In this document: piece by piece, positions 4,394 through 5,722 of the stretch | Layout: the number at the start of each line of letters is the position of its first letter | Numbering within the stretch: position 1 is the stretch's first letter | Source: Candidatus Sodaliphilus fimicaballi | GTDB taxonomy: Bacteria; Bacteroidota; Bacteroidia; Bacteroidales; Muribaculaceae | Length of the DNA stretch: 14,255 nucleotides | Direction: 5' to 3' | Assembly (NCBI GenBank): GCA_018065165.1 | Contig: JAGHTV010000446.1 | Span: forward strand, 1 to 14,255 | Notes under the pieces: model-generated | Told to the model about the DNA's origin: nothing | What the model saw: only the letters and a program-made list of their open reading frames with translations | Databases searched by the model: none | Program-made: the position numbers and the translations under genes

Positions 4394-4597
4394 ATGAAGA
4401 AGTTAGTTTTATTACTTGCTGTTGTATTTGGTGTATCTTTCGTATCTTGCAACCAAGCTGAGCAGGCTGCTGAGTCTGTAGACAGCGCTGCTGTTGAGGT
4501 TGTTGATAGCGCTGCTGCTGCTGTTGATAGCGTAGCTGATTCAGCTGCTGCTGTTGTTGATAGCGCTGCTGCTGTTGTTGAAGAGGCTGCTAAGTAA
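4394..4597 (+). CDS. Small Ala/Val/Asp-Ser repeat lipoprotein
   Basis: This 67-residue protein begins with a lipoprotein signal peptide (residues 1-18: MKK, hydrophobic core, FVSC lipobox) with the lipidated Cys at 19. The mature part is only 49 residues, made almost entirely of A, V, D, S and E in a repeating VDSAAAV pattern. The acidic D-S steps recur mainly every 7-8 residues (30, 38, 45, 49, 56), as in a helical heptad-type rod, and the chain ends EEAAK. DNA repeats (GATAGCGCTGCTGCTGTTG-like) underlie this. It has its own strong promoter and terminator, so it is probably abundant and envelope-located. The layout (lipidated N-terminus, short helical body, C-terminal lysine) resembles Braun's Lpp, though homology is not claimed. 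Similar small Ala-rich lipoproteins occur in Bacteroidales, function unknown. Confidence 0.85.
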   Translation: MKKLVLLLAVVFGVSFVSCNQAEQAAESVDSAAVEVVDSAAAAVDSVADSAAAVVDSAAAVVEEAAK

Positions 4598-4650
4598 TTT
4601 GGCATCCCTGCACAAGCAGAGACATCAAAAACAACAAACGAAGAGTTTGG

Positions 4651-4690
4651 AGCTGTTCGCCCGCAAGGGTTTGAACAGCTTTTTTCTTTT
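4651..4690 (+). terminator. Terminator of the lipoprotein gene
   Basis: An 8-bp stem (4651-4658/4673-4680) is topped by CCC/GGG closing a GCAA tetraloop (4660-4669). It is followed at once by a T-rich run from 4680. It lies about 50 bases after the stop codon. Confidence 0.9.
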
Positions 4691-4705
4691 ATAGCCCAGC
4701 CTGTA

Positions 4706-4817
4706 CTAGGCTTTCTAGGTTTTCTAGGCCATCTAGGCCGTCTAGGTTCTCTAGATGTTCTAGATTATCTAGAAATTCTAGGGATTATAGGGATTCTAGA
4801 ATCTCCAGAGAGTATAG
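4706..4817. repeat. CTAG array with exact 9-bp period, 13 units
   Basis: CTAG occurs at 4706, 4715, 4724, 4733, 4742, 4751, 4760, 4769, 4778 and 4796. The in-phase slots at 4787, 4805 and 4814 hold one-base variants (ATAG, CCAG, ATAG). Each unit is three or four variable bases plus TCTAG followed by G or A. The array sits between the terminators of two convergent genes. In one plus frame it would read (x-Ser-Arg)n and in another (Leu-Gly-x)n, but neither has its own start codon, so it is taken as non-coding. CTAG is usually a rare tetramer in bacteria, and strict spacing with variable filler suggests selection on the motif or descent from a slipped 9-mer. Confidence 0.9.
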
Positions 4818-4855
4818 GCTATTAAATCTATCACGGCAATCTTTCCCACTATAAC

Positions 4856-4890
4856 AAAACAAGCTCCACCCTAAGGGCGGAGCTTGTTTT
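4856..4890 (-). terminator. Terminator of nagB, probably bidirectional
   Basis: A 12-bp perfect stem (4856-4867/4879-4890) with A on the left flank and T on the right can terminate in both directions. CCC/GGG pairs inside the loop. It lies about 20 bases after the nagB stop codon. Confidence 0.85.
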
Positions 4891-4909: not shown

Positions 4910-5722
4910 TTACAGTTCCATGCTTTGGGGATCGAGGTTCTTGCTCTCGATATCCTTGAAGTAGCGATATGTGCTCACCTTGAGTTCCATTACAGCATTC
5001 TCGTCGGCAATGATGACAGCCTTGCGGTGCATTTGCAGTGCGCTAAGTGTACACATGTGTGATACGCCACCTTCAACAGCAGCTTGCAATGCGCGAGCCT
5101 TGTTGTAACCATTAACGATAATCATGACGCTCTTGGCAGCCATTACAGTGCCTACGCCCACTGTGAGTGCAGTCTTGGGCACCTTGTTAACGTCGTTGTC
5201 AAAGAAACGGCTGTTGGCGATGATTGTATCTTGTGTAAGAGTCTTCTGGCGAGTGAGCGATGTGAGTGATGACATGGGCTCGTTGAAAGCGATGTGTCCG
5301 TCGGGACCTACGCCACCCATAAACAGGTCGATACCACCAGCGGCAGCAATGCGAGCCTCATAGTCGGCACATTCCTTCTCCAGATCCTCGGCGTTGCCGT
5401 TGAGAATGTTTACATTCTCGGGCTTGATGTCGATGTGTGAGAAGAAGTTGTTCCACATGAATGAGTGGTAGCTCTCGGGGTGCTCCTCGGGCAGACCACA
5501 GTACTCGTCCATATTGAATGTAATCACATTCTTGAACGATACCTTACCTGCCTTGTTGAGCTCGATAAGCTTCTTGTACATGCCCAGGGGTGAACTGCCA
5601 GTGGGGCAACCCAGTACGAAGGGCTTCTCGGGTGTGGGATTAGCTGCATTAATGCGTGATGCTACATAGCGTGCTGCCCATTCACTTACCTGCTCGTAAT
5701 TAGGTTCAATAATAAGTCTCAT
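4910..5722 (-). CDS. nagB: Glucosamine-6-phosphate deaminase NagB
   Basis: It converts glucosamine-6-phosphate to fructose-6-phosphate and ammonia, the entry of amino sugars into glycolysis. The 270-residue length fits the E. coli-type enzyme (266). Active-site residues fall at the same numbers as in E. coli: D72 in NMDEY, and D141, H143 and E148 in [13 protein letters not shown]. The phosphate loop [11 protein letters not shown] spans 39-49. Residues known from E. coli as the GlcNAc-6-phosphate allosteric site are also present (S151, R158, K160, T161, Y254), so allosteric activation is plausible. It is monocistronic, convergent with the lipoprotein gene and divergent from surE; a -7 element lies about 55 bases upstream of its ATG. 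No nagA or transport gene is adjacent, but a NagB-like paralog starts at 13586. Confidence 0.97.

Follow-up and report, generated by a model that had tools for sequence, protein, structure and literature searches.

The window (the whole 14,255-nt stretch analysed) carries two convergent genes, between which lies a regular array of CTAG tetranucleotides. On the plus strand, the reading frame at positions 4394–4597 encodes a small Ala/Asp/Ser/Val-rich protein of 67 aa which, from inspection, we take to be a lipoprotein; similar genes are likewise placed in several relatives. On the minus strand, the reading frame at 4910–5722 was named by inspection as a glucosamine-6-phosphate deaminase-like gene, presumably nagB. 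A terminator-like structure is found 3′ of each gene: on the plus strand a hairpin (4649–4682) followed by a T run (4649–4691 in all, MFE −19.5 kcal/mol, z −3.4) for the lipoprotein gene, and on the minus strand a hairpin (4858–4888) with a T-rich tract beyond (4850–4888 in all, MFE −24.3 kcal/mol, z −6.6) for the nagB-like gene. Neither hairpin was listed by a consensus terminator scan. The array (4706–4817, no strand assigned) starts just downstream of the 4649–4691 structure and is located between the two. Since it sits between two strongly folding hairpins, this copy is probably little transcribed.

Direct slot reading gave thirteen consecutive slots of 9 bp (4706, 4715 and so on to 4814), occupied by nine CTAGs followed by ATAG, CTAG, CCAG and ATAG; the ten exact motifs and three one-base variants claimed in the first-pass annotation were thus recovered, and the adjoining slots at 4697 and 4823 do not match the motif. 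Its claim that this arrangement is far from chance also holds, with about 2e-19 starts expected to have at least 10 of 13 slots filled given the dinucleotide composition of the window. The array accounts for 10 of the 27 CTAGs of the whole window, a total which lies below the shuffled mean of 43. It had further been described as a 9-bp CTAG motif with variable filler. Period and cores are as described, but CTAG is not the entire invariant part: all 12 complete units have T in column 9, and a purine occupies column 5, G in 7 units and A in 5, giving the unit T-CTAG-R-NNN.

Two of the three frames are open and some arrays elsewhere lie within genes, as a repeat encoding L-[GDE]-x or x-S-R peptides would predict. 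Nevertheless, the window array is located past the stop codon and between the terminator-like hairpins, and most arrays lie outside predicted genes, which leaves a coding repeat with a practically negligible probability. CRISPR arrays consist of repeats of about 20–50 bp separated by unique spacers and lie beside cas genes; with a repeat of 4 bp and a spacer of 5 bp, the window array does not fit this description. Another tandem repeat of the window, at 84–383, has 2.5 copies of a 122-bp unit with 94% matches and contains GGCTAGCC.

Distribution of CTAG arrays and of other cores

Four CTAGs at 9-bp spacing have 45 placements in the window's own genome (G000, a draft, 80% complete), and the reversed control pattern has none there. 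Over 101 genomes searched, at least four in-phase CTAGs were observed in 47 of 61 members of the genus (G000 included) versus 1 of 40 genomes from the other families of the order, with a genus maximum of 208 placements in one genome; with the reversed control, two genus genomes had 2 and 1 matches and all other genomes none. The lone positive among the 40 has a nearly uniform filler. The CTAG array was absent from 14 of the 61 genus members, the single-contig genome G060 among them. When arrays were sought in relatives in a check run, many loci of the lineage were positive, which disposes of the case, envisaged in the first-pass annotation, that no other locus carries one. The window array thus belongs to a class of short tandem repeats, made of a core plus filler, that occur throughout the genome.

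Eight CTAGs in a row at 9 bp were found in at least 117 stretches from named genomes. The 80 matches listed include, by title, 62 Bacteroidales (a sorting of our own, with one Candidatus Colivivens), 10 Verrucomicrobiota-type bins, 6 others and 2 unnamed, where several entries may represent one genome. Among the matches listed, median filler identity is 0.59 for Bacteroidales, 0.55 for the Verrucomicrobiota-type bins and 0.89 for the six others, whose arrays resemble ordinary repeats. Many entries are metagenome bins, and single ones might be contamination. The cultured bearers among the matches listed are Prevotella conceptionensis, Hoylesella shahii and Prevotellamassilia timonensis; their presence in cultured isolates shows that the arrays did not arise from binning. 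In a Verrucomicrobia bin (UBA3783), one CTAG array contains 39 exact cores (locus L175, 5528–5900), and CTAG-N4 arrays of 8-bp period, in which roughly every second filler is AAGC, occur at L170 (4148–4400). A scan of viral sequences gave at least 119 stretches, with cores mostly of a 9-base AGTGG type.

Other cores were found in the same genomes. For TCGA-N4 (8 bp), 87 placements were counted in G000, and 14 of 30 chosen genomes carry this family, its reversed control giving 2 in G041, 5 in G098 and 0 in 28. A motif-free scan, which required four or more adjacent fixed columns together with variable ones, detected ten arrays in the G000 stretches: four had TCGA at 8 bp, another five were CTAG-type and one was CTAT at 9 bp. 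This sample is biased, since most of the contigs had been selected for CTAG. In stretches of G041, G015, G054 and G060, which were not motif-chosen although three of these genomes were picked for high CTAG counts, the commonest core was TAGA/CTAG at 9 bp; GCTA and AACT, both at 7 bp, came next. G015 also has GGGAA at 9 bp, and in G060 a total of 3 short arrays, whatever their core, were found in 400 kb. Among the 30 chosen genomes, GTTTAANN has 186 placements in G106, 110 in G004, 4 in G000 and 0 in 27; TCAAGTTNN has 193 in G022 and 0 in 29; TAGC-N3 has 131 in G054, 123 in G015, 121 in G022, 56 in G115 and at most 18 in the others, its reversed control CGAT-N3 (7 bp) being not clean (71 in G041 and 3, 1 and 1 in three others). 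CGAT-N3 in G041 is probably one more array family. A CCGG-N5 array of 9-bp period, also with a palindromic core, was noted in a Paludibacteraceae bin (L180, 6445). Stretches of G041 (L331 1568–1916, L321 19761–20000 and others) contain many 7- and 8-bp minisatellites, and G060 contains nearly none.

These data bear on a genome-wide cooperative binding array for a putative host protein (RHH of MetJ/CopG type, TrpR-like or nucleoid), in which the core would be under purifying selection and would shift with the specificity of the protein. The palindromic core, its exact spacing and its strong conservation agree with such sites, as do the second palindromic family TCGA and the single examples CCGG-N5 and CTATAG-N4, and species-specific cores are what co-evolution with a changing protein should produce. 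However, non-palindromic cores (TAGC, GGGAA, GTTTAA, TCAAGTT) occur in the same genus, arrays lie inside coding genes and between unrelated genes, and the array-free members of the genus, including G060, indicate that they are not essential. Operators of MetJ, CopG and TrpR are few per genome and located upstream of genes. CTAG arrays share with them short palindromes at a fixed close spacing but, unlike them, are many per genome and occur downstream of and inside genes. Tandem operators precede the gene that they regulate and keep this position at orthologous loci; CTAG arrays were not found to do so, although one array is conserved between G008 and G119 (see below). A binding array is a possible explanation, although we consider it rather unlikely.

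Core conservation, growth and turnover

The first-pass statement that the motif is kept while the filler varies was supported, the core being much less variable than the filler. Interior slots without an exact core amounted to 32 of 1063 in named genomes and 8 of 134 in the genus. Close unit pairs differ by 0.014–0.035 per core site versus 0.24–0.29 per filler site, i.e. 8–17 times less, a contrast inflated, to an extent that these data do not fix, by the picking of arrays through exact CTAG runs with two missing slots allowed. Arrays with a filler identity of at least 0.8 were dropped from the core rates (11 of 133 named, 2 of 30 others), from the lag analysis and from the CTAG side of the comparison with 7/8-bp arrays. 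The proportion of slots with a changed core does not differ between genes (4 of 144) and other DNA (30 of 1011).

Across 136 arrays, fillers at a distance of two units resemble each other more than shuffled ones do (0.638 versus 0.581, P = 9e-9), and those of adjacent units do not (0.574 versus 0.581); lags 5 and 6 are somewhat below shuffles (P = 2e-4 and 0.04, respectively). As judged from these sequence comparisons, an excess at lag 2 without one at lag 1 makes growth by two-unit blocks likely. The lag-2 excess was also observed in 48 non-palindromic 7/8-bp arrays (0.823 versus 0.785, P = 3e-6) and was not seen in 12 TCGA arrays (P = 0.66); it is therefore no property special to CTAG. The same results weigh on hairpin-primed expansion, in which extruded two-unit loops would fold as a CTAG/CTAG stem with a filler loop of 4–5 nt. 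Palindromic cores, filler of 4–5 bases, two-unit steps and independence of context would all be accounted for by this mechanism, but non-palindromic arrays show the same step, TCGA arrays do not, and in some genomes placements of non-palindromic families are comparably numerous. We regard it as very unlikely. Hairpin-driven slippage as a special cause is weakened by the two-unit step of the 7/8-bp arrays. Adjacent inverted duplication was not found among the arrays.

Median filler identity within arrays is 0.59 (65 arrays from the 62 Bacteroidales matches listed), above the pooled-column expectation of 0.31 (named genomes) or 0.47 (genus), as within-array duplication would give. Between unlinked arrays, shared filler words were not above a first-order Markov model (P 0.10–0.59 in four genomes); relative to an independent-column model they were above in G119 (P = 0.001) and G000 (P = 0.02) and borderline in G041 and G008. 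Like long simple sequence repeats, the arrays consist of tandem fixed short units above chance; the whole unit, however, is not repeated, filler identity being far below that of whole-unit repetition, and we therefore class CTAG arrays as a variant of long simple sequence repeats. Of the decayed 9-mer minisatellite proposed at first pass, the minisatellite came nearest the mark among its suggestions, but the decay did not stand, as the core is not decaying.

Several described repeats can be compared. Long simple sequence repeats of 5–11 nt, as summarized in two later papers, abound in scattered lineages; slippage was proposed, and units in multiples of three are tolerated in coding DNA (Mrazek, Guo and Shah 2007, cited in PMC4679880 and PMC4060949). 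In those accounts whole units are repeated, whereas CTAG arrays keep the core only, and surveys requiring exact units would be expected to miss variable-filler arrays. GGGNATC heptamers of Xanthomonas and Nostoc are reported to be genome-wide, over-represented in non-coding DNA and variable in unit number, favouring aligned ORFs and stop-codon proximity and under-represented between divergent ORFs (Rehm et al. 2015, PMC4692102). From this account, they are like CTAG arrays in genome spread, gap placement and variable unit number, but have a near-uniform 7-bp unit, occur preferentially as four units and could form G-quadruplexes, in contrast to a 4-base core plus 5 variable bases at 9 bp without G-tracts. 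TAACTGA heptamer direct repeats are reported from Beggiatoaceae, Cyanobacteria and five Bacteroidetes (MacGregor 2015, PMC4679880). As described there, they are likewise short, patchy across phyla and intergenic, and a close relative may be without an array in a similar gap; their unit is an exact 7 bp and they are mostly located just upstream of starts in the main genome, whereas CTAG arrays have variable filler and lie nearer stops. Judged from titles and abstract lines, no account of CTAG-N5 arrays was found in open PMC papers.

A role tied to the locus, as the first-pass annotation had entertained, was not supported by 29 nagB loci, by the cores found in matching gaps or by the arrays in housekeeping genes. 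In the stretches read, three or more in-phase CTAGs 3′ of nagB were present in none of the 29 loci fetched from relatives, of which 7 have a recognisable lipoprotein neighbour or its terminator and the rest another neighbour or shortened sequence. Locus L291 has three CTAGs on the 5′ side of nagB. In the matching lipoprotein-nagB gap, G115 carries TATAG at 9 bp; 3′ of nagB, next to other neighbours, G004 carries a 10-bp CTATAG run (CTATAG-N4) and G022 carries TCAAGTTNN.

Five gaps with an array in G000 were compared with relatives at about 69–90% DNA identity, and most relatives have another short array or none. In the first, CTAG in G000 is matched by GTTTAANN in G106 and G004, a GTCAAN-like run in G022 and no array in G045. 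In the gap next to it, CTAG in G000 is matched by a TTCCCCGAG run in G004 and GCCATTA in G022, and none was seen in G106 and G045. At locus L381, one gap has five CTAGs in G000 and one CTAG plus one CCAG in G004 with the flanks aligned, i.e. three units fewer, while G106 and G022 have no array and G119 and G008 have 7-bp-type runs; another gap has GTTTAANN alike in G000, G004 and G106, and yet another has an array in G000 and none in G004, G119 and G008. A change of unit number by duplication or deletion was observed directly at one gap only, and the lag-2 likeness agrees with it. Some arrays do not turn over fast. This is the case for the GTTTAANN gap common to three genomes and for a seven-CTAG array identical in G008 and G119, within a 520-bp stretch of 95.6% identity, other stretches of this pair being 80–89% identical.

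Position of the arrays relative to genes

Genes were called with a home-made codon model, with approximate starts. Predicted ORFs are overlapped by 21 of 140 arrays of named genomes; most are intergenic (119 in gaps). The idea of a boundary element between convergent genes, put forward at first pass, does not describe the rule, since 90 of the 119 lie between co-directed genes. Of the 79 arrays in co-directed gaps (array-free length up to 500 bp), 57 have the upstream stop closer to them than the downstream start (P = 1e-4), and in 10 the first bases belong to the stop codon. Divergent genes flank 10 of the 119 arrays, compared with 94 of 574 background gaps (at least 90 bp, gaps with arrays included; P = 0.024). 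The 3′ bias and the scarcity in divergent gaps fit promoter avoidance.

The nearness to upstream stops, the starts on stop codons and the fewer arrays between divergent genes would also be expected of an RNA-level 3′-end element, the transcribed array serving after stops as terminator, stabiliser or protein-binding tract. Consistent with this, none of 200 shuffles folds as well as 4685–4830 of the window (z −3.6). However, the self-complementary core alone would give such a fold, and filler complementarity beats shuffled order (P < 0.05) in 1 of 164 arrays from six sets. Flanking inverted repeats are not above mismatched controls, the window array lies past the terminator-like hairpins of both genes, and the 3′ bias also follows from selection against promoter insertions. 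Such an element seems decidedly unlikely to us. Taken as a class, filler hairpins did not exceed shuffled controls, nor did flanking inverted repeats exceed mismatched ones in any set; single cases of inverted complementarity were seen at gap 1 of L381, at L192 and in the flanks of the window array.

The flanks share repeats: similar flank hits numbered 38 among 42 G000 flanks (TTAACC-type runs) and 23 among 30 G041 flanks (a GGGACAAGGC palindrome), where one pair may count more than once. Arrays may have spread together with a neighbouring element, as far as shared flanks can tell. The palindrome GGGACAAGGC (GTAGGGACAAGGCGYGCCTTGTCC), which we take to be REP-like, is found within 30 bp of 4 of 15 CTAG arrays in G041 (L319 11060, L321 6790 and 11220, L323 10236), and GTAGGGACAAGGCGYGCCTTGTCC has 64 sites in 676 kb of this genome. 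This proximity and the TTAACC-type runs common to several G000 array flanks would suit arrays that arise or travel beside an interspersed palindromic element. Nevertheless, no such palindrome lies within 150 bp of the other 11 of 15 arrays, the palindrome is present in any case in 30 of 255 gaps (minimum length 90 bp), and a second short array is no commoner in gaps with a CTAG array in any of five sets. We consider arrays as passengers of such an element highly improbable.

In-frame arrays were found in genes for AlaRS, RimO, GluQRS, LpxK, topoisomerase and ABC-F proteins. Among 17 array proteins examined, the array is inside the stretch aligned to solved structures in AlaRS and RimO, between two aligned halves in GluQRS, within Pfam matches in LpxK, Topoisom_bac and Acyl_transf_3, and in linkers or tails of ABC-F, UvrD, RlmL-like, histidine kinase and LptF proteins. 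Such places, in housekeeping proteins and in linkers or tails, are hard to reconcile with a local regulatory task. In a Prevotella bin from goat reticulum, a single gene for alanyl-tRNA synthetase has two separate CTAG arrays (L225, 2610–2658 and 3204–3234).

A satellite-like reading and CTAG scarcity

Taken together, a shared core and exact period with unshared filler, the change in unit number and the sharply differing cores between relatives favour a self-expanding, rapidly replaced short-repeat system similar to satellite DNA, in which the amplifying process and not the locus would hold the core constant; we give this reading a probability of roughly 0.53. Amplification would proceed through replication slippage or unequal exchange, in most cases by two units (18 bp) at once. 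Units with an intact core would keep being amplified, and the core would be conserved by amplification rather than by local function. A trans-acting factor of the cell (a property of polymerase or repair, a nuclease or a DNA-binding protein) may set the favoured core and period. Host selection would spare arrays only in harmless places, namely behind stop codons, in intergenic gaps and in the loops of proteins.

A further proposal is that each species has its own repeat 'dialect' over dozens of loci, largely replaced between sister species and driven by a fast-changing sequence-specific factor that accumulates its own target. By analogy with uptake-sequence dialects and recombination-hotspot motifs, this factor might act in DNA uptake, recombination or modification or be a nucleoid protein, and CTAG-N5 would be the dialect of many species in the genus and its kin. 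We find this proposal doubtful.

If gaps are repeatedly refilled by species-specific arrays of fixed core, the satellite-like system would be a prokaryotic counterpart of satellite DNA with a findable trans-acting cause. Genes would then be affected as well, through in-frame linkers in tRNA synthetases, LpxK and topoisomerase. Annotation and strain typing may also be affected, as the arrays vary fast and can break short-read assemblies.

CTAG itself is scarce in some genomes. In the G060 sample (400 kb), its observed/expected ratio is 0.02. Over 37 genomes included in both searches, CTAGAA falls below 40 per Mb in 6 of 8 array-free genus genomes versus 2 of 29 array-bearing ones; this scarcity may be cause, effect or trivial. 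The rarity of CTAG in G060 and of CTAGAA suggests a CTAG-directed purge, e.g. restriction, in some species. CTAGAA is very rare in G005, G012, G013, G016, G022 and G029. Other tetranucleotides are depleted too: ACGT in G000 (0.32) and G015 (0.20), compared to 0.84–0.90 in G041, G054 and G060, and GATC in all five of these genomes (0.30–0.49).
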